From contig LVAO01000012.1 in assembly GCA_001604065.1 (NCBI GenBank), positions 1-45,570 on the forward strand: 45,570 nucleotides of DNA, in the 5' to 3' direction. Source of the DNA: Clostridiales bacterium Firm_09 (GTDB lineage Bacteria; Bacillota; Clostridia; Christensenellales; DTU072). The stretch's first letter is position 1. Each line of letters opens with the position of its first letter. Positions 1,062 through 36,214 of this stretch are shown one piece after another. The translations under genes were made by a program, and so were the position numbers. Below the pieces are notes generated by a model. The model was not told the origin of the DNA. It made no database searches and saw only the letters and a list, made by a program, of their open reading frames with translations.

Positions 1062-1137
1062 TGGTGCACCTCCAGGGGCTCGAACCCTGGACCCATTGAT
1101 TAAGAGTCAATTGCTCTACCAACTGAGCTAGAGGTGC
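1062..1137 (-). tRNA. tRNA-Lys (anticodon CTT)
   Basis: The cloverleaf is complete: acceptor GCACCTC/GAGGTGC, D arm GCTC/GAGC, anticodon stem ATTGA/TCAAT around CTCTTAA, and a T arm with TTCGAGC. CCA is encoded (1062-1064). It is the last tRNA of the cluster in the direction of transcription and a second lysine isoacceptor beside the TTT gene at 1464. Confidence 0.96.
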
Positions 1138-1153
1138 ATTGTTTTTACAGGTA

Positions 1154-1182
1154 TTGGGGCTGTCCTTGTGGGACAGCCCCAA
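1154..1182 (-). other. Perfect 12-bp hairpin between two tRNA genes
   Basis: TTGGGGCTGTCC (1154-1165) pairs perfectly with GGACAGCCCCAA (1171-1182) around a 5-base loop. It sits between the 3' end of tRNA-Gly(GCC) and the start of tRNA-Lys(CTT). No T-run follows on either strand, so it is not a classic terminator. It could guide processing of the two-tRNA transcript. Confidence 0.7.
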
Positions 1183-1257
1183 TGGAGCGGGAAACGGGAT
1201 TCGGACCCGCGACATTTGCCTTGGCAAGGCAACGCTCTACCACTGAGCCATTCCCGC
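1183..1257 (-). tRNA. tRNA-Gly (anticodon GCC)
   Basis: Acceptor GCGGGAA/TTCCCGC, anticodon stem TTGCC/GGCAA around TTGCCAA (anticodon GCC), T arm GCGGG/CCCGT. CCA is encoded at 1183-1185. It is the first tRNA after the internal promoter at 1274-1302. Confidence 0.96.
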
Positions 1258-1273
1258 GCGTTTTCGTGTCACC

Positions 1274-1302
1274 ATTATACAGTATCATCGACACTTTGTA
1301 AA
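1274..1302 (-). promoter_or_regulatory. Internal sigma-A promoter for tRNA-Gly(GCC) and tRNA-Lys(CTT)
   Basis: On the minus strand, TTTACA (-35, 1297-1302) and TATAAT (-10, 1274-1279) are 17 bases apart, placing the start about 10 bases upstream of the tRNA-Gly(GCC) 5' end. An AACTGTT/AACAGTT hairpin (1301-1318) abuts the -35 element. In the plus direction it is followed by a T-run, so it may be a plus-strand terminator. Confidence 0.75.
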
Positions 1303-1375
1303 CTGTTTTTCAACAGTTTTTTGGGTATCCGTTCCATAAAATCGGACAAGAACTTTATGAAACACAGATTCTTTT

Positions 1376-1459
1376 TGGTGCGACCGAAGAGACTTGAACT
1401 CCCACATCCTAGATACTAGATCCTAAGTCTAGCGCGTCTGCCAGTTCCGCCACGGTCGC
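1376..1459 (-). tRNA. tRNA-Leu (anticodon TAG)
   Basis: A class II tRNA with a long variable arm. Acceptor is GCGACCG/CGGTCGC, anticodon stem CTAGA/TCTAG around CTTAGGA (anticodon TAG). CCA is encoded at 1376-1378. Confidence 0.95.
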
Positions 1460-1463
1460 ATAT

Positions 1464-1539
1464 TGGTGATCCATCGGAGATTCGAACTCCGGACACCTTG
1501 ATTAAAAGTCAAGTGCTCTGCCGACTGAGCTAATGGATC
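1464..1539 (-). tRNA. tRNA-Lys (anticodon TTT)
   Basis: Acceptor GATCCAT/ATGGATC, anticodon stem CTTGA/TCAAG around CTTTTAA (anticodon TTT). CCA is encoded at 1464-1466. Confidence 0.96.
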
Positions 1540-1544
1540 ATATT

Positions 1545-1619
1545 TGGCTGGGGTGGCAGGATTTGAACCTACGGGTGTGGGAGTCAAAGTCCCATGCCTT
1601 ACCGCTTGGCGACACCCCA
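1545..1619 (-). tRNA. tRNA-Gln (anticodon TTG)
   Basis: Acceptor TGGGGTG/CACCCCA, anticodon stem TGGGA/TCCCA around CTTTGAC (anticodon TTG), discriminator G. CCA is encoded at 1545-1547. Confidence 0.95.
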
Positions 1620-1659
1620 ACGGGGACCGAACAACATTGTATCCGGTAGGTATTGTGAT

Positions 1660-1737
1660 TGGGGTGAGTGAAGGGACTCGAACCCACGGCCTCCAGGGCC
1701 ACAACCTGGCGCTCTAACCAACTGAGCTACACCCACC
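1660..1737 (-). tRNA. tRNA-His (anticodon GTG)
   Basis: Acceptor GTGGGTG/CACTCAC, anticodon stem CCAGG/CCTGG around TTGTGGC (anticodon GTG). The base before position 1 is G and the discriminator is C, matching the extra G(-1):C73 pair specific to tRNA-His. CCA is encoded at 1660-1662. Confidence 0.95.
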
Positions 1738-1827
1738 ACTTTTTTGCAGCCGAACCGCAAACAAAAATGCTTTGCGGTAACTCGAACCGATGCGGATTGT
1801 CAAAGTGCGACCCATTGTTTATGGGAA

Positions 1828-1904
1828 TGGCGAGCCTGGAGGGATTCGAACCCGCGACCTACGGCTTAGAAGGCCGTTGCTCTATCCAGCTGAGCTACAG
1901 ACTC
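1828..1904 (-). tRNA. tRNA-Arg (anticodon TCT)
   Basis: Acceptor GAGTCTG/CAGGCTC, anticodon stem ACGGC/GCCGT around CTTCTAA (anticodon TCT), discriminator G. CCA is encoded at 1828-1830. The 90-base gap to tRNA-His contains an ACCGCAAA/TTTGCGGT hairpin (1754-1778) but no gene. Confidence 0.95.
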
Positions 1905-1906
1905 AT

Positions 1907-1980
<74 letters not shown>

Positions 1981-11255: not shown

Positions 11256-11289
11256 CAAAAATGGCGCCCCAATGAGTTGAGCCGCCATT
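11256..11289 (-). terminator. Terminator of the surface-protein operon
   Basis: On the minus strand, AATGGCG and CGCCATT (11283-11289 and 11260-11266) form a stem followed by TTTTTG. It lies about 20 bases past the stop codon of the GLUG protein gene. The 171-base gap between guaA and that gene holds only this and the guaA terminator. Confidence 0.7.
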
Positions 11290-11310
11290 CAGGAACAATC
11301 ATTCAAATCA

Positions 11311-13053
11311 TTACGGCGCTCTGAGGACAGGATAATTGTTTGTTACCGTCTGCCAAACATTGACAAAATCCAATGCCGTCATGTTGGTTAAAGCGTTTGT
11401 TCCTTGCATCTGTGCGGTTAGCAGTCCCGTAACCCCCGTATCCGCAGAAGACCCGATCCCGCTTCCCAGCGGCATACCCGAGCTTTGGACATCCCAATAA
11501 CAATCGGATACCGGCACATGGCCGCCGTCCGTACCGACTCTGCCGATCAGCCCGCCGATGTTGGTGCCGTTGTTCACGGTTACCGTGCCGGTAGAATACG
11601 ATTTTTGCAGGATGCCTCGGTACAGATTGCAACCGACAAGACCGCCTACATTGCTTGCTCCGTCATCCGCGTACACACTGCTGTGGGAGTAACAATTGAT
11701 AATCGTGCCTTTTTGCGAGCATCCTACCAAACCGCCGATTTTCTCAAAGATATGCGGATCTGCGATATTTTTGATGCCGTATACAGAAACATTAGCATAA
11801 GAATTCAGAATTCTGGGATTCCGGTCAACAGAGCCTGTAGATTGAAAACTGTTATTGGCGCCTACAAGCCCGCCTGTCGAAGCATTTCCTTTCACTTGTC
11901 CGCCCGAAACACCGGCATACTGGATGATTGTCAAATTGTTCCCGGTCACTCGACCGACCAGCGAGCCTACACCTCTGGCTCCTGTGATATTTACATTGGT
12001 CATATATATTTTTTGGATGGTGGTAGGTTGATTTGATGCGCTGATGCCGATATGCCCAAAGAGTCCGACGTTGTCTTGCGAAGGTCTGTTAATATACAAA
12101 TCGGACACGGTGTATCCTTGACCGTCAAAATGTCCGGTAAATCTGCCGGTCGTATCGTTGCCGATAGGATCCCAGCCAAGACCGCCGTTTGCAGAACTTC
12201 CGGCATAGGTACTGTATCCGAAAGAAGCAGCAGAAAGATTGTTGTCCAGAACAAAGTATGCGCTCAGAAATTCACGGACATTGGAAAGCTGTTCCCATGT
12301 CGCGATCCGGAAGGGATCCGCCTGCGTGCCCCGTCCCCCGTCAAAAGGACTGTTCAAAACCCAATTCGCATACAAGGTTGCATCGGAAGTCAGGTTGTAT
12401 CTGGTCACACTCTCCATCGCGGCATCATAATATTTTGTGCCGGTTCCGCCCGTACCGCTATAATAGCCGTCAAAAAAATAACCTGTGAGAACCGGCGCTT
12501 CGGCCTGTGCCATGGGCGAATCATAGGTAACCGATACCGTATCAGTTCCCCCGGTGCCGCTTTGTTTATCGAATGTGACGGTATATTCTTTGCCAAAATG
12601 CATACTTAGCGTTTTTGCATAGCCGTTGGTCGCAGCAACCGTAATCCAAAATGCCAGAACATCCGCGTGCGGCGTCACCGTAATCGTTGCTGTCGAGAGA
12701 GCGCCGCCTTGAAGAACGCCGTTTTTATCATCGCTTATCGACACTGTATCATTGCCAAAGGTTTGAATCTCCGATACCGAAACGCTGTAAGAAATATCAT
12801 AGGATGTCGTTTGCTGTCCGACAAAATTATAAAGCTTGACATCAAACGCCGAAGCAAAGGATTCATAGCCGCCGTAAGGCAACAGGATATCGCTTGAAAA
12901 AAAGAAAGAAGAAGAGTCGACGGTATAATCATTATCCAGGCTGTCGGAATATTTGGAAAAAACCGAACCGATAATGAGCGCTGACGTCATGGTGACAATC
13001 AACAGCAAAACTGTGACAATCGAAAAAATATACGATTTACGGATGCTATGCAT
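11311..13053 (-). CDS. Surface protein with InlB-type repeat and GLUG motifs, SipW-type leader
   Basis: A 580-residue predicted secreted protein. The N-terminus has a basic start, a long hydrophobic stretch and the segment IIGSVFSKYSDS, which resembles the leader of SipW-processed proteins such as TasA. Around 165-245 lies an InlB/Flg_new-type repeat (YTVTFDKQSG to ATLYANWVLN). The C-terminal half has repeated GLUG-type blocks: GSLVGRVTG, GGLVGANN, GGLVGCSQKG, GGLVGCNLYRG and GGLIGRVG, ending in DCYWDVQSSG. Such repeats are typical of adhesins. No LPxTG anchor is visible. The ATG at 13053 has AAAAGGA upstream, whereas the earlier ATG at 13077 lacks one. It is the last gene of the operon. Confidence 0.8.
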   Translation of the reverse strand: MHSIRKSYIFSIVTVLLLIVTMTSALIIGSVFSKYSDSLDNDYTVDSSSFFFSSDILLPYGGYESFASAFDVKLYNFVGQQTTSYDISYSVSVSEIQTFGNDTVSISDDKNGVLQGGALSTATITVTPHADVLAFWITVAATNGYAKTLSMHFGKEYTVTFDKQSGTGGTDTVSVTYDSPMAQAEAPVLTGYFFDGYYSGTGGTGTKYYDAAMESVTRYNLTSDATLYANWVLNSPFDGGRGTQADPFRIATWEQLSNVREFLSAYFVLDNNLSAASFGYSTYAGSSANGGLGWDPIGNDTTGRFTGHFDGQGYTVSDLYINRPSQDNVGLFGHIGISASNQPTTIQKIYMTNVNITGARGVGSLVGRVTGNNLTIIQYAGVSGGQVKGNASTGGLVGANNSFQSTGSVDRNPRILNSYANVSVYGIKNIADPHIFEKIGGLVGCSQKGTIINCYSHSSVYADDGASNVGGLVGCNLYRGILQKSYSTGTVTVNNGTNIGGLIGRVGTDGGHVPVSDCYWDVQSSGMPLGSGIGSSADTGVTGLLTAQMQGTNALTNMTALDFVNVWQTVTNNYPVLRAP

Positions 13054-13080
13054 TTTTGTTCCTTTTGCCCTTCGCATCGT

Positions 13081-13620
13081 TTATACAATTTGTTCCCAAA
13101 CAACCCTTACGGTGAGGGTATCGGTAAGTGATTGGTAGATTTCATCATTGCGTCCTGCGGGCCAGTCTATAGTCAGGATAAAATTCAGATCGCTGGACGA
13201 TGCGACCGACATCGAATAGATGCCCGAAACAATCTTTTTGGTTTGGTCGTCCAAACCATATGTAATACCGTTTATCCAGTTTTCTTCCAGCTCCAAATCA
13301 AACGGCAGAACGGTATCCGTCGTTATTTCTATTCTGAAATACAAAGCGACTTCTGTCCTTTGTGAATCTTTATAATTTGAAACGACAATATCATATTGCG
13401 CCGTATCGCCGGGCTTCATCTCGCTCATCTCCAGTGTTACAGGAACGGAATTATCATAAACATTCATCTCTATGACATATCTCGCCGCGCGGATGCTTCC
13501 GTCGCCGGATACAACCGTCAGATAATTGGCCAAAGATATACCGGTCACAGCATACGCAACAAGTATGAGTATCAGCAGACAGGTCTTGATCGGTATTTTT
13601 CTTTTATGATTCATTTGCAT
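13081..13620 (-). CDS. Small TasA/camelysin-like protein with SipW-type leader
   Basis: About 179 residues. A basic N-terminus and hydrophobic stretch (about 10-27) are followed by GISLANYLTVVSGDGSIRAA, in the position where SipW substrates carry their GTxAxY cleavage motif. The mature part looks all-beta: MKPGDTAQYDIVVSN early on, and ILTIDWPAGRNDE near the end in the place of the W-x-W/acidic segment of TasA-like proteins. The start overlaps the end of the signal peptidase gene by 17 bases, suggesting coupled translation, and a second ATG two codons on is equally possible. It is presumably a substrate of the adjacent peptidase. Confidence 0.7.
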   Translation of the reverse strand: MQMNHKRKIPIKTCLLILILVAYAVTGISLANYLTVVSGDGSIRAARYVIEMNVYDNSVPVTLEMSEMKPGDTAQYDIVVSNYKDSQRTEVALYFRIEITTDTVLPFDLELEENWINGITYGLDDQTKKIVSGIYSMSVASSSDLNFILTIDWPAGRNDEIYQSLTDTLTVRVVWEQIV

Positions 13621-14146
13621 TTTTTTGTTTTTTTGCCCTCGCAATCTTCTCCGGCATATCTTTGAGCGTTGCAATAAGCGCAATCACCGCGAACAATACG
13701 ATCATGCCTGTCGGAGTTCTGAGATATCCCAGAAGGATACCGATTTTGGGTATTACCAGAACCACTTTTCCTTCTATCCGGTCAAAGCCTGTCTCCGGGT
13801 CGGCGGTACTGTTTGCATCTCCTTTGGTAATGACACCGTATTCTTTGATCTCTATGATTCTGTGGGTAATCAAGGCGTCGCCTTCGCGGAACGTAATGAT
13901 ATCCCCGACCTTATATTCTTCTTCTTCTTTGATAATGACCATATCTCCCGGGTCAATGGCGTCGCGCATGCTTCCCGTCACTACGATTGCGTTCGCCATC
14001 CCGAATACCTTGGGCAAATCATTCTTGAACAGGTATCTTCCGGCGGCAGTATACAGATTCACGCCGAGAAGAAACAACAGAATTGCAACAACGGCAACAT
14101 TGATTATCTTATAAATTGTCAAGATAAGCTTTTTTTGTTTTTTCAT
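13604..14146 (-). CDS. ER/SipW-type signal peptidase I, copy 1
   Basis: A 180-residue membrane protease that would cleave leaders of exported proteins outside the membrane. It has a TM segment near 10-31, the catalytic serine in VVTGSMRDAIDPGD (S59), and histidine in place of the usual lysine in ALITHRIIEI (H95). KGDANSTAD follows with conserved aspartates, and a C-terminal TM lies near 145-162. The Ser-His arrangement and short length define the SipW/archaeal/ER class rather than the SipS class. It starts one base after the TasA-like membrane gene and overlaps the next gene, so it is tightly embedded in the operon. Confidence 0.88.
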   Translation of the reverse strand: MKKQKKLILTIYKIINVAVVAILLFLLGVNLYTAAGRYLFKNDLPKVFGMANAIVVTGSMRDAIDPGDMVIIKEEEEYKVGDIITFREGDALITHRIIEIKEYGVITKGDANSTADPETGFDRIEGKVVLVIPKIGILLGYLRTPTGMIVLFAVIALIATLKDMPEKIARAKKQKNANES

Positions 14147-14149
14147 GGA

Positions 14150-14914
14150 TTACGCCAGCTCTGCAACAACCGCAATCTGGATGGAATAGGTTGAAGTCAA
14201 ATCCTGTCCTGCCATGGTATCGCGGACATCATCCACGTCCGCAAACCAAAGCCATTCTATATAATAGATTGTTCTCGCATCGCTTGTCAGGTAGATATTA
14301 TTCAGGTTCAGCTGCGAAAGAGATTTCCATTCTTCGTCAAAATACACATCATCTATTTTTATCCTGTAACATATCGGAATATGGTAACGATTGACTTCGC
14401 TGATACGGACATTATGCAGTATGGGTTTGGCGTTCTGATTCTTGACGACAAAAGAATATGTCCCCGTGCTTCCGGGACAAATACTCTTTGTGCCGAGTAT
14501 ATTGATGTTCATCCTTCCCGACCAATGCGTTTCGCTGTCGATATCAAAGACCGTGACTTCGGGAATTTCCGGCTCGGTCAGCGACATGCCCATCTTTTTG
14601 AAGAGCAATGTCGTCTGCAGAACAGACAGCGACAGAAAGATGAACAGGATCGCGACAACCGACAGCTTAAAGAATGCTCTGGGAGGTTCTTTCAGACTTC
14701 CGATGTATTGATCTGCGGGAGAATAAACTTCGCCCGAAGAGGTGACGTATGCGGGGATTTCTCCCTTATATGTGACAAGTGTCGTATTGATTTTCTGGAC
14801 AGAAAAAGCATCTCCTTTACTGAAGACAGGAGATATCTTGATATAAGCAATCACTTTGCCTTTTTTATTATAGACACGCTCATGGCCTATATTAAGTATT
14901 CTTATTTTGTCCAT
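14150..14914 (-). CDS. Membrane-anchored TasA-like protein
   Basis: About 254 residues, not assigned to a named family. Residues 1-80 are polar, with a beta-rich look (NKKGKVIAYIKISPVF), and lack a signal peptide. One TM segment lies at about 82-105. The C-terminal part (about 115-254) resembles the mature domain of TasA/SipW substrates: ICPGSTGTYSFVVKNQN, then IYYIEWLWFADVDDVRDTMA, similar to WKWVDGNDAEDTALG in the neighbouring TasA-like protein. The probable topology is cytoplasmic N-terminus and outside C-terminus. It might anchor or nucleate the secreted partner, which is inference. The ATG at 14914 is chosen because upstream residues overlap a hairpin; AGGAG lies 16 bases away, rather far. 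Confidence 0.65.
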   Translation of the reverse strand: MDKIRILNIGHERVYNKKGKVIAYIKISPVFSKGDAFSVQKINTTLVTYKGEIPAYVTSSGEVYSPADQYIGSLKEPPRAFFKLSVVAILFIFLSLSVLQTTLLFKKMGMSLTEPEIPEVTVFDIDSETHWSGRMNINILGTKSICPGSTGTYSFVVKNQNAKPILHNVRISEVNRYHIPICYRIKIDDVYFDEEWKSLSQLNLNNIYLTSDARTIYYIEWLWFADVDDVRDTMAGQDLTSTYSIQIAVVAELA

Positions 14915-14940
14915 ACGTTTTTTGTCTTTGCTCCTATGTA

Positions 14941-14998
14941 GAATTCTTTCATTTTTTGCCGCCCCGCTAGCCACTGGCAGGGCGGCAAAAATGAATTC
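14941..14998 (-). other. Strong intercistronic hairpin inside the surface operon
   Basis: TTTTTGCCGCCC (14953-14964) is perfectly complementary to GGGCGGCAAAAA (14980-14991). GAATTC lies at both outer edges (14941-14946 and 14993-14998) and can extend the pairing. On the minus strand it follows the stop of the TasA-like gene by about 17 bases. The stem's own T- and A-runs make it terminator-like in part, but no T-run follows the stem. It could reduce read-through or protect the upstream mRNA end, so that the first genes are expressed more than the later ones. Confidence 0.7.
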
Positions 14999-15014
14999 AC
15001 TTCAAATCAGATTA

Positions 15015-15935
15015 TTATATGGACCATTGAGCAGTGTAGGTTGCATCCGCGGTAATAGTGGTTACTCCGCTAGTAAACGCGGGATCCCATCCGGCGAATG
15101 CCGTTACATTGGTATAGGTGGGAGCATTTAATGTTGCGCCGTCATTGACAAGCTGGACTGCGGATCCTTGGGCAAGAACAGGAGTTCCGCTGCCGCCATT
15201 AAAGGTAACCACCCACGGATTGATGAGCCAGTTTTGGGTATAAACAGGAGAAGGCGTCATAATCTGAGTCGCTTTGTTGCTAATGGTGAGTGTCAGGACG
15301 GGTGTATCGTCGGTTGCCCATTTTTGGCCGAGTGCGGTGTCTTCGGCATCATTGCCATCCACCCACTTCCAGTATACCATAACGTAACCGATGGAATTCT
15401 TCTGAAGCGTAATCGCAGCAAGAACTGTCTGGATCCTTGCCGCAAACGCATCGGGAGTGACTCTTGTGCCACCCGCATAAGAAGGTGTGGCCAAAGTATT
15501 GGCAATGCCTACGCCATATGTAATATCGTAAGAAATAAAGGCGTCAACATCCGTATCCATTGCATTGGTTGCTGCTGCCGTGACGGTGCTGCCCGCCATT
15601 GTAAGGTCGACATCCGTTGTCGATCCGTCAAGCATGATGACAAAGCTGCCATATACGCCGGGGGCAAGATAAAGCTCTCCTGCATCGCCCGCAACCGTTC
15701 CGGTTGCATCCGTCGTGGCATTTTCAAAAAGATTGATGGTTGCCGCCGTTGTGGTTGTGTATGTTCCCGCTCCGCCATCCGTTGCCTGATATCCGAATTT
15801 GGCGACGGAAATGGTGTCCGCGCCCAATACGGTTGTGGTATATTTGGCAAAGGTTCCGCTGATGACGCAGGCTGTCGCTACAGTGAGTACAACAACCAGC
15901 ATTGCGATTTTGATAAATAAACTGTTTCTCTTCAT
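15015..15935 (-). CDS. TasA-like secreted protein with SipW-type leader and InlB-type repeat
   Basis: A 306-residue predicted exported protein. It opens with a basic start, a hydrophobic stretch (about 8-24) and VISGTFAKYTTT, a close match to the leader of SipW-dependent proteins (TasA, CotN, camelysin). Residues to about 225 are Thr/Ala/Gly-rich and beta-like, including MVYWKWVDGNDAEDTALG, which TasA-type proteins share. The C-terminus (about 235-306) is an InlB/Flg_new-type repeat from VVTFNGGSG to ATYTAQWSI. AAGGAG lies nine bases before the ATG at 15935; the ATG three codons earlier touches it. Its place just after a signal peptidase suggests it is the main product of the operon. Confidence 0.8.
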   Translation of the reverse strand: MKRNSLFIKIAMLVVVLTVATACVISGTFAKYTTTVLGADTISVAKFGYQATDGGAGTYTTTTAATINLFENATTDATGTVAGDAGELYLAPGVYGSFVIMLDGSTTDVDLTMAGSTVTAAATNAMDTDVDAFISYDITYGVGIANTLATPSYAGGTRVTPDAFAARIQTVLAAITLQKNSIGYVMVYWKWVDGNDAEDTALGQKWATDDTPVLTLTISNKATQIMTPSPVYTQNWLINPWVVTFNGGSGTPVLAQGSAVQLVNDGATLNAPTYTNVTAFAGWDPAFTSGVTTITADATYTAQWSI

Positions 15936-15954
15936 TTTCTTCATCTCCTTATTG

Positions 15955-16023
15955 TTATTTCATGGCTATTCTCTTTTTATTGATATTGTGGCTATTTTTT
16001 TTACTGCCCGGTCGTTTTTTCAT
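15955..16023 (-). CDS. Possible 22-residue basic peptide
   Basis: Between the second signal peptidase and the TasA-like gene, an ATG at 16021-16023 opens a frame coding MKKRPGSKKNSHN and nine more residues, over one third lysine or arginine, and stopping at 15955-15957. A strong AGGAGG (16053-16058) lies upstream but 29 bases away. Nearer to it, an ATG at 16034-16036 opens a five-codon frame whose stop overlaps the peptide's ATG (ATGA). Translation by coupling is conceivable. Base composition is A-rich and there is no family support. Confidence 0.25.
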   Translation of the reverse strand: MKKRPGSKKNSHNINKKRIAMK

Positions 16024-16095
16024 TGAAATAAAACCATATTTTTTTGTTTGCACCTCCTTTTTCTGTTTTTTATTTTCCACTATCGAATGCTATGT

Positions 16096-16731
16096 TCAAA
16101 TTCTGGTTTCATCCTCTTTTTTGTCCTTCATGTTCCTGCGCACATAAATTTCACGGCGTATCGTAACGACAACAAGATAAATCAGTATCGGCGCGCCGAT
16201 AAAAACAATCATTCCTACCGGAGTCTGCAGAAAGACGGCAAAATCCCCCATCTTCGGTATTCTTCCTATATAGATTCCTACGACATTCTCCGGAAGGACA
16301 GGAAGCAGATCGGGCGAAACATTATGGTCGCCCTTTGTCTGAAATGATTTCTGACCGTCCTGTCCGATTTGCACATCAATGACTCTGTGTGTAACAACAA
16401 ATTTGTCTTCAAAAAAGGCAATGATATCTCCCTTCTTTATCTCATCGGTGTCAATCTTCTTTATAAAGACAAGATCCCCTTTCATAATTGTGTCTTCCAT
16501 TGAGCCAGATACGATAATCATGGGAGAAATATTGAAAATGGAAGGAACCTCATCGGGATTGGCCAATCCTTTGATAATCAATACTGAGTTGCAGATGAGA
16601 ATCGGCACAAAAATCACACACAGCACAATGCACAGTACGGTAAGCGCAATCCTGGAAGCTTTGCCTTGCAGTGGGACATATTTTTCTCTTTTGCTTTGCT
16701 TGGAGATGCTGTCGATTGTTTTCTTTTCCAT
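16096..16731 (-). CDS. ER/SipW-type signal peptidase I, copy 2
   Basis: A 211-residue membrane protease, the first gene after the riboswitch. It has a cytoplasmic basic tail, a TM segment at about 28-52, the catalytic serine in IIVSGSMEDTIMKGD (S77), histidine in FVVTHRVIDV (H115), and QTKGDHNVSPD. A C-terminal TM lies near 172-190 with a charged tail. Ser-His chemistry marks the SipW/ER class. It is clearly diverged from copy 1 at 13604-14146, so the two may differ in substrate choice or timing. The ATG at 16731 has AAAGG eleven bases upstream, and the TTG eight codons earlier has none. Confidence 0.87.
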   Translation of the reverse strand: MEKKTIDSISKQSKREKYVPLQGKASRIALTVLCIVLCVIFVPILICNSVLIIKGLANPDEVPSIFNISPMIIVSGSMEDTIMKGDLVFIKKIDTDEIKKGDIIAFFEDKFVVTHRVIDVQIGQDGQKSFQTKGDHNVSPDLLPVLPENVVGIYIGRIPKMGDFAVFLQTPVGMIVFIGAPILIYLVVVTIRREIYVRRNMKDKKEDETRI

Positions 16732-16808
16732 TGTGTACCCAACCTTTTTTAACAAAAAGCAACTTCTGTTCGAGCTGCCCTGAAATCCGATATAAATGAA
16801 TATACCTT

Positions 16809-16853
16809 AAAAAACTTAATGAAAAATCAATAAGCGCGATATAATACACTTAT
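16809..16853 (-). promoter_or_regulatory. Expression platform of the c-di-GMP riboswitch
   Basis: Two exclusive foldings are visible on the minus strand. ATAAGTG (16847-16853), which is also part of aptamer P1, can pair with CGCTTAT (16830-16836), followed by TGATTTTT. Alternatively CTTATTGA (16827-16834) can pair with TCATTAAG (16815-16822), one mismatch, followed by six T. In the first scheme ligand prevents termination; in the second it promotes it. Confidence 0.55.
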
Positions 16854-16932
16854 ATCAGGTGGCAGCTGGCTGCCTCAGAGAGGCCCTGTAGTTTTGCGTC
16901 ATTACCTTGCGATAATTTTGCCGATATCAAGT
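16848..16932 (-). ncRNA. c-di-GMP-I riboswitch aptamer (GEMM-I)
   Basis: On the minus strand the leader shows the GEMM-I signature in order. It reads GGCAAAA, a stem TTATC/GGTAA capped by a GCAA tetraloop, GACGCAAAACTACAGGGCCT, and GGCAGCCAGCTGCC as the second arm. P1 closes with ACTTGATATC (16923-16932) and GATATAAGT (16848-16856), with one bulged G. The base before CAAA is G, the residue that favours c-di-GMP; in the cGAMP-selective variants it is A. It lies about 7 bases after the predicted transcription start and upstream of the surface-protein operon. Confidence 0.9.
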
Positions 16933-16945
16933 TTTAGTTAATTAG

Positions 16946-16974
16946 ATTATATACCCTCTGTCATATAGTGTCAA
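16946..16974 (-). promoter_or_regulatory. Sigma-A promoter of the surface-protein operon
   Basis: TTGACA (16969-16974) and TATAAT (16946-16951), both perfect, with a 17-base spacer. Transcription should start near 16939, directly before the riboswitch. The leader to the first start codon is about 208 bases, so the 340-base gap between obgE and this gene is explained. Confidence 0.9.
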
Positions 16975-34864: not shown

Positions 34865-36214
34865 TTATCTTATAACGCAATAATTCCTTCCGGACTCTTT
34901 GGCTTCAAAGAGCTGCTTATCCGCGATATTGATTAATGCCAGATGATCTTCCACATTGCGCTCGGGATACGATGTGCCGCCGACGCTTACGGTAATCCGC
35001 AGGGTCTGCTGCTGATTCTGTATTTCGGTATCCTCCACGATGCGGCGAAGGCGTTCCGAAAGCTGTTTTACGTCCGCCATGGATGCGCCGGGAAGAACAA
35101 CCAGAAACTCTTCACCGCCGTACCGCAAAAAGACATCCCCTTCGCGAAGCGTCGATTTTGCCGCGCGGGTAAGGCTGATAAGCACTCTGTCCCTGACAAG
35201 ATGACCGTAGGTATCGTTTACATTTTTGAAGTGATCGATGTCAAACATGATAATGCCGAGGGGCATATCGGTTTTTACCGCGCGCGCAAACTCTTCTTTC
35301 AGCCGCGAAAGACCGAAGCGCCTGTTATAGATTCCCGTCAGCGGATCGTTTGCGGCAAGCCTTTGCAACTGATCATGGGTGATGGCATTCTTGAATGCAA
35401 GAGCCAGTCCCTGCCCGAACAACTGGATATTCTTTTGCATTTCTTCAGAAAACTCTACAACGGTTGCAAGAACCACGACGCCGAGGACGATTTCTTTATA
35501 CAAAATTGGTTCTATCAATACCGTCTTGGGTCTGTAGCTGACAATCGCGCTGCTCAGGCTGATATCCTCCGGAAGATGAATGACCAGCCTTTTGCGGTTT
35601 TTGATGACGCTCCAGACAATATTGTTCTCAATCATTTTTTCCGGCATATTGATTCCGAAGGAGGATAGGACGCTCAGCTCGCCTTCCTTATCAACGATGA
35701 TTGCTCCGCCTGCGGCGTTCATATTTTCTATCAGCTTATCAAGAGCCTCCGCCCCCAGTTCGTCCAGATCCAGCTTGCTTGACAGCATCTCCGTAAAATT
35801 CCGGACTGCCGCTTCTGAACGGAAGGCTTTTGCCAACGAACGGACAAGAGAATTGAACGCCTCCGCGCAGTCGCCGATGACATCGTCGGAATCCAACTTA
35901 ATAAAACACTTGTCGTCCTCAAAACCTTCTTTTAAGGGGCACGCCGCTTTATCGTTGATGCGTTTTTCGATGTATCCCATATGCGTATGAAGCTGTTTCA
36001 GCTTTTTGCCCACAATTTTTTTTGCCAGGAAGATATTGAACAATCCGACCAGCAAGCCCGCGGCGATGCACATCGAAAAAAACAACGGGGTCAATACGAT
36101 GTTTTTGTCCACATTGATGAACAGAAGAACAAAAAAAGGGAACACAATCCCTATCATCGCGCCGAAGCCGAGCATGAACACGGCAAGATTCTTAAAAACA
36201 TTTTTGGTGAGCAT
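34865..36214 (-). CDS. Membrane diguanylate cyclase (GGDEF)
   Basis: A 449-residue enzyme making c-di-GMP from two GTP. TM segments lie at about 10-33 and 42-65, then a HAMP-like linker and a GAF-like sensor region (about 140-280). The GGDEF domain (about 285-449) has DPLTGIYNRR, FDIDHFKNVNDTYGH, and the active-site GGEEF at 366-370. The inhibitory RxxD (R357-D360) stands five residues before it, so product inhibition is expected. One oddity is GHLVRD, where most cyclases have GHxxGD. AAGGA precedes the ATG. It is a plausible source of the ligand for the riboswitch at 16848-16932. Confidence 0.93.
   Translation of the reverse strand: MLTKNVFKNLAVFMLGFGAMIGIVFPFFVLLFINVDKNIVLTPLFFSMCIAAGLLVGLFNIFLAKKIVGKKLKQLHTHMGYIEKRINDKAACPLKEGFEDDKCFIKLDSDDVIGDCAEAFNSLVRSLAKAFRSEAAVRNFTEMLSSKLDLDELGAEALDKLIENMNAAGGAIIVDKEGELSVLSSFGINMPEKMIENNIVWSVIKNRKRLVIHLPEDISLSSAIVSYRPKTVLIEPILYKEIVLGVVVLATVVEFSEEMQKNIQLFGQGLALAFKNAITHDQLQRLAANDPLTGIYNRRFGLSRLKEEFARAVKTDMPLGIIMFDIDHFKNVNDTYGHLVRDRVLISLTRAAKSTLREGDVFLRYGGEEFLVVLPGASMADVKQLSERLRRIVEDTEIQNQQQTLRITVSVGGTSYPERNVEDHLALINIADKQLFEAKESGRNYCVIR

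Follow-up and report, generated by a model that had tools for sequence, protein, structure and literature searches.

A c-di-GMP riboswitch leads a conserved operon of two SipW-like peptidases and candidate TasA-like fibre proteins in Clostridiales bacterium Firm_09

Results

Organization of the locus

The genome of Clostridiales bacterium Firm_09 (GCA_001604065.1; 1.44 Mb, 79% complete) contains a run of six open reading frames which, behind a single promoter and a GEMM-I aptamer for cyclic di-GMP (c-di-GMP), probably encodes a SipW/TasA-type fibre anchored at the cell surface. The run lies in the stretch of 45,570 nucleotides (nt) analysed here, called the window, which forms one end of a 118-kb contig (LVAO01000012.1). 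All features of the operon are on the minus strand, and the frames are separated by small gaps or overlap. The sigma-70 promoter, already proposed in a preliminary description of this DNA, has TTGACA and TATAAT spaced by 17 nt (16946-16974), matches the consensus at 12 of 12 positions and is the best match of the region; the aptamer begins about 14 nt past it.

The first gene encodes SipW1 (P0001, 16096-16731), an endoplasmic reticulum (ER)-type signal peptidase with the motifs SGSM, THR and KGD. It is followed by P0002 (15015-15935), a candidate TasA-like major subunit with a SipW-type signal (SGTFAKY) and a C-terminal InlB-repeat-like extension, and by P0003 (14150-14914), designated a membrane-anchored TasA-like protein on profile and model matches. 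A second ER-type signal peptidase, SipW2 (P0004, 13604-14146), precedes P0005 (13081-13620), a putative small TasA-like subunit with a profile match to the P0002 family, whose frame overlaps that of SipW2 by 17 nt. The last gene encodes P0006 (11311-13077), a predicted surface adhesin with a SipW-type N-terminal domain and Flg_new and GLUG repeats, and a terminator-like hairpin (about 11259-11290, fold z -2.30) closes the run. This gene order, also proposed in the preliminary description, was confirmed with its tight packing, and a single transcription unit is predicted.

Within the operon, a strong intercistronic hairpin past the major-subunit gene (14948-14995, z -4.06), equalled in stability by none of 200 shuffles, separates two blocks. 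The first comprises SipW1 and P0002; the second, in which start and stop codons are close or overlap, comprises P0003, SipW2, P0005 and P0006. The 160-nt gap between the SipW1 and P0002 genes contains a 22-codon basic reading frame, MKKRPGSKKNSHNINKKRIAMK (16022-15954).

Two peptidase lineages in a conserved cassette

SipW1 and SipW2 scored 100.3 and 80.0 bits against TIGR02228, both above the curated cut-off of 51.85, and were the only matches to this model in the genome. Both display the Ser/His/Asp motifs of ER-type enzymes (SGSM or TGSM, THR and KGD). Against the Bacillus SipW equivalog NF046067, they reached 98.6 and 56.4 bits, below the cut-off of 190 bits; the window peptidases are SipW-like and not SipW in the strict sense. 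In the phylogenetic tree, all SipW1 and all SipW2 sequences fell into separate groups with moderate supports (81/94 and 89/88), a split which spans Lachnospiraceae, Oscillospiraceae and the order of the window. This separation across cassettes points to two old paralogue lineages, both of them retained.

Cassette loci were collected by a search with three SipW2 sequences followed by inspection of the flanks, a selection by query which therefore gives no measure of cassette frequency. The order SipW1, TasA-like protein, transmembrane (TM) protein, SipW2, small subunit and larger surface proteins was found again in L060, L062, L063, L064, L065, L067, L070, L075, L087 and L092, the P0003- and P0005-type middle genes being assigned by position only in some loci; partial copies occur in L061, L069, L073 and L074. 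The locus L070 belongs to the cultured [Clostridium] citroniae WAL-17108 and contains matches to all six window proteins. The preliminary description had not recognised the arrangement of two peptidases with a membrane-bound homologue as a described one, and we likewise found no paper on it. As the same order exists in at least 10 other clostridial loci, it is a conserved clostridial cassette and no oddity peculiar to the Firm_09 genome. A stable hairpin past the main-subunit gene is present in eight of ten cassettes (z -2.5 or lower), with unrelated sequences.

A shared domain in the candidate fibre proteins

Profiles built from clostridial homologues revealed a domain shared by several proteins of the operon: P0005 and the outer portion of P0003 matched the P0002 family with E-values of 7.7e-14 and 2.8e-13, respectively, and the N-domain of P0006 matched the P0005 family more distantly (E 1.7e-7). 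The pattern VAPG..W.W..ND..DT..G of P0002 is conserved in 11 homologues. In P0006, Pfam identified Flg_new (29.4 bits, cut-off 27) and GLUG (32.5 bits, cut-off 20.5). P0002 and P0005 were matched by no library model and P0003 only by sub-threshold beta-flower matches; the TapA model TIGR04087 did not match P0003 in NCBIfam searched up to an E-value of 0.1. The sequence-profile search against solved structures gave no convincing homology, and a search for P0003 on plasmids found none.

For structural comparison, PDB chains were pre-ranked by Foldseek with AlphaFold2 models as query. The top matches of the P0002 model (mean predicted local distance difference test score, pLDDT, of 47) were the TasA fibre 8aur (Z 7.0, root-mean-square deviation (rmsd) 3.4, 137 residues) and TasA 5of1 (Z 5.3). 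The P0003 model was fair (pLDDT 76) and suggests a cytosolic beta-rich N-domain, a TM segment at about residues 80-107 and an extracellular TasA-like domain. For this outer domain, 8aur (Z 7.7, rmsd 2.7, 121 residues) ranked second, on a par with other beta-sandwiches, and Foldseek on P0003 returned generic beta-sandwich matches only. The models thus support a TasA-like fold without proving it. We retain the label "TasA-like", already used in the preliminary description, because of the signal-peptide type, the shared domain and the predicted fold, and not because of a sequence match.

Members of the P0003 family vary outside the shared domain. Their N-terminal cytosolic part (14914-14670 in the window; also in L067, L075 and L092) is rich in beta structure, and some members have weak "beta-flower" matches there; others (L060, L070 and L073) carry large extracellular inserts, and carboxypeptidase-regulatory-like matches were observed in four members.

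A GEMM-I aptamer and its genomic associations

An Rfam scan of the whole window identified the GEMM-I (c-di-GMP-I) aptamer at 16858-16932 with 54.7 bits against RF01051 (gathering score 35, E 4.4e-8), a score which, together with the alignment, leads us to reject a chance or weak riboswitch call. The covariance model thus bears out the GEMM-I element previously proposed and its 5′ end; the 3′ end had been drawn 10 bases too far. In an alignment of 23 aptamers, that of the window has a G at the position equivalent to G20 of Vc2; ten of the other aptamers examined have an A. As G at this position is of the c-di-GMP type and A is associated with cGAMP (cyclic GMP-AMP) recognition (PMC6274999), a cGAMP-type aptamer is not favoured, and the window aptamer is predicted to bind c-di-GMP.

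A GEMM-I aptamer precedes SipW1 in four lineages, namely the window, L060 (two in tandem), L064 and L070; none was found in the remaining cassettes with complete upstream DNA. In three loci without GEMM-I, a divergent gene upstream of SipW1 resembles, by eye, a LytTR-type response regulator (L062:4810-5595, L063:3545-4264 and L087:840-1706).

In the family of the window, GEMM-I occurs in 9 of 40 genomes and SipW-like peptidases in 38, so the peptidase without GEMM-I is the commoner state. Of the 22 family aptamers inspected besides that of the window, 21 have downstream DNA that is not cut off, and all 21 of these leaders precede SipW-type peptidases or proteins that are TasA-like or carry a SipW-type signal. 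Together with the aptamers on the cassette in three other lineages, this strengthens the idea at the core of the preliminary description, a SipW/TasA-type matrix operon directly under a c-di-GMP riboswitch. A general clostridial rule of GEMM-I beside SipW is unsupported, the association being rare across the class: among the matches listed for 391 sampled genomes of the class, inspection by eye gave at least two further neighbours on one contig (G053:C16 and G263:C163).

Further arrangements were observed around these aptamers. The second GEMM-I of the Firm_09 genome (L035:212-5134, contig C1) lies before three proteins with AWF/AYF signals (234, 258 and 1045 amino acids), the first of which has a sub-threshold camelysin match (16.7 versus 22.5 bits); its leader has no clear terminator. 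Six aptamers with A at the G20 equivalent (L041, L044, L045, L047, L048 and L050, in genomes G003, G004, G012 and G018) all precede adhesin-like genes of about 1,200-1,290 amino acids, and the SipW operons of the same four genomes have a G there. The A is also found in L039, L054, L070 and the third aptamer of L043. In another c-di-GMP-led operon of relatives (L046, L049, L051, L042 and L052), two conserved proteins of about 510 and 560 amino acids are encoded between two SipW-like peptidases; four such proteins were tested and had no Pfam match. Tandem GEMM-I aptamers stand before TasA-like or SipW operons in L043:2286-2645 (three), L042:5106-5323 (two) and L060:4677-4938 (two).

Alternative pairings in the leader

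Two logics are described for GEMM-I leaders (PMC9262584). In the OFF leader Cd1, a downstream strand pairs either with the aptamer 3′ strand or with a terminator strand; in the ON leader pilM, the terminator includes the aptamer 3′ strand. According to fold calculations on the window leader, the aptamer 3′ strand AGCUGCC (strand A, 16861-16867) pairs either inside the aptamer or with GGCAGCU (strand T, 16773-16779), located 80 nt downstream, within an anti-aptamer hairpin of -31.6 kcal/mol. The strand GGCAGCU would thus serve both as anti-terminator partner and as 5′ arm of a terminator, T1 (hairpin -8.2 kcal/mol), whose 3′ arm AGUUGC and U tract UUUUUGUU lie at 16751-16764.

The computed probability of T1 was 0.93 with the aptamer held folded and 0.13 with the aptamer free at a length of 190. 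With a free aptamer, the anti-terminator reached 0.92-0.95 while the 3′ arm of T1 was still being transcribed. The combination of a 7-nt complement with an overlapping terminator occurred in none of 5,000 shuffles, in a test designed after the feature had been seen. An alternative weak hairpin, T2, is formed by AUAAGUGU/GCGCUUAU and followed by UGAUUUUU (16830-16853, -6.6 kcal/mol).

Signal supply and neighbouring genes

The window also encodes a GAF-GGDEF protein (34865-36214, minus strand; GGDEF 147.4 bits), a candidate source of the signal and the sole GGDEF match of the genome, in which one HD-GYP-type match was also found. No EAL and no flagellin match was obtained in this genome, which is 79% complete. 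If the missing fifth of the genome changes nothing, the c-di-GMP circuit is very small, and both of its known outputs are SipW-type surface operons. Eight tRNA genes are clustered elsewhere in the window (1065-1980, minus strand).

Discussion

We propose, with a probability of roughly 0.68, that the genes of this locus form an operon, gated by c-di-GMP, whose products build a SipW/TasA-type fibre anchored to the cell surface. In the model, SipW1 would release the main subunit P0002, which would polymerise outside the cell. P0003 would retain its TM segment and display the same type of domain outside, so that it could anchor or start the fibre, and SipW2 would process P0005 and P0006, which may cap or decorate it. 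The hairpin past P0002 would divide the message into an abundant part for SipW1 and the main subunit and a scarcer part for the anchor, SipW2, the minor subunit and the adhesin. Such a role in stoichiometry, much shaft subunit and little anchor and tip, is suggested by Clostridium perfringens, in which, owing to a terminator after bsaA, the sipW-bsaA mRNA is abundant and the readthrough mRNA rarer (PMC7395162). Binding of c-di-GMP to the GEMM-I leader would decide whether transcription reaches the genes; the bound aptamer would most likely free GGCAGCU for the terminator and turn the operon off, unlike most related leaders.

Several results weigh against this model or parts of it. On the protein side, no TasA or camelysin model of Pfam or NCBIfam, PF12389 included, matched P0002, P0003 or P0005, and the TapA and BsaA family models were also without a sequence match among the window proteins; the P0002 model is poor, and all structural Z-scores are below 8. 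On the side of regulation, most cassettes from the SipW2 search have no GEMM-I, so the riboswitch input is not intrinsic to the cassette. The free leader at equilibrium forms T1 at lengths 183-186 (0.63-0.85), and OFF control therefore needs the earlier-formed anti-terminator to persist; T2, for its part, would give ON logic, and a leader identical to that of the window is kept in no close relative. Because the genome is incomplete, the missing EAL or flagellin gene is itself weak evidence.

As regards the sign of control, we lean towards a leader built like Cd1, in which c-di-GMP would switch the operon off. The same fibre operon might instead be under an ON riboswitch, the bound aptamer blocking T2 or otherwise permitting readthrough, so that c-di-GMP would promote the matrix. 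Such control would fit the promotion of sessile life by c-di-GMP, and the pilM-type logic (PMC9262584), in which the 5′ arm of the terminator coincides with the aptamer 3′ end, is followed by 18 of 22 family leaders by scan, by one more by eye, and by the cassette leaders L060, L064 and L070. However, no aptamer-overlapping terminator of this kind was found in the window, where a search gave only T2, a weak hairpin with a broken U tract which is not made less likely by a folded aptamer, and the A-T-H arrangement is strong and beyond chance expectation; we consider ON control of the window operon unlikely. All other modes together appear slightly less likely still. Among them, an action mainly on SipW1 translation or on mRNA stability would be in keeping with a leader of about 210 nt and its long hairpin of -31.6 kcal/mol; the Bc1 GEMM-I leader of Bacillus thuringiensis, which is long too, combines transcriptional with translational effects and has hardly any response to c-di-GMP in vivo (PMC11218506). 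Since the bases just before the SipW1 ATG are similar in the free and bound folds and the largest predicted change falls on T1, we hold this mode to be improbable. The direction implied in the preliminary description, adhesins turned on by c-di-GMP, is thus doubtful for the window, because its leader resembles an OFF switch and most related leaders an ON switch.

Alternatively, SipW processing could yield surface adhesins or enzymes without the ability to polymerise, their likeness to TasA being that of a common beta-sandwich. The missing family-level sequence match to TasA speaks for this possibility, as do the middling Z-scores of P0003, shared with unrelated beta-sandwiches. Three or four proteins that share one domain and lie in one operon with dedicated peptidases nevertheless follow the pattern of a fibre system, TasA is the clear first match of P0002, and the signal peptides are of the SipW type, which makes non-polymerising proteins rather unlikely. 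Starting again from a fibre operon, a broader interpretation can be put forward tentatively: the clostridia would possess an ancient fibre system in which two ER-type peptidases cannot replace each other, one serving the shaft and the other the side of anchor and tip; this system may have come repeatedly under the direct control of a c-di-GMP riboswitch, with the switch perhaps inverted in Firm_09 (OFF versus ON in related leaders).

Known systems resemble the locus in part. In the tapA-sipW-tasA operon of Bacillus subtilis, an ER-type peptidase is dedicated to a beta-sandwich matrix protein and a second protein anchors or starts the fibre (PMC10151520), but there is a single peptidase, the described control includes no riboswitch, and TapA is not homologous by model; the window adds a second peptidase, a predicted uncleaved type II membrane homologue and an adhesin inside the operon. 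The sipW-bsaABCRSD operon of C. perfringens likewise has sipW first, the main fibre subunit second and a terminator behind the subunit gene (PMC7395162); unlike the window, it has one SipW and is under the BsaRS two-component system and temperature control, and the window proteins have no NCBIfam match to it. In Bacillus cereus, sipW-calY1-bc_1280-calY2 combines several TasA-like subunits with SipW (PMC10151520) and an accessory assembly protein, CapP (PMC13082335), but it has one SipW, and the accounts consulted describe no c-di-GMP riboswitch. The Cd1 leader of the Clostridioides difficile flgB operon shares with the window an aptamer 3′ strand pairing further downstream with a strand that would otherwise go into the terminator, with OFF logic (PMC9262584); it controls flagella (PMC11477304), in contrast to the predicted fibre operon here. 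Direct control of surface attachment genes by c-di-GMP riboswitches is also found in the c-di-GMP-II riboswitches of the type IV pilus and the CD2831/CD3246 adhesins in C. difficile and in cbpA and Bc1 of B. thuringiensis, which belong to another riboswitch class or act on other surface proteins, with no SipW/TasA system.

The kinds of component are thus known, namely a GEMM-I riboswitch, SipW-like peptidases and TasA-like fibre proteins; their combination and the two-peptidase cassette are new as far as we found. A search of full-text literature, mostly openly available, returned no paper joining a SipW/TasA-type operon with a c-di-GMP riboswitch and none on a two-SipW cassette.

Most of what is known of SipW/TasA fibres comes from Bacillus and C. 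perfringens, in which they are under protein regulators. The two conserved peptidase paralogues of each operon pose the question of why one fibre should need two signal peptidases, and the occurrence of both ON-type leaders and apparently OFF-type ones at the same genes constitutes a natural experiment on the change of sign of a riboswitch. If the proposed reading is true, c-di-GMP would be linked to matrix fibres without an intervening protein in several clostridial lineages, among them that of a cultured, human-associated species, and the operon would provide a first testable function of c-di-GMP in these little-studied gut bacteria.

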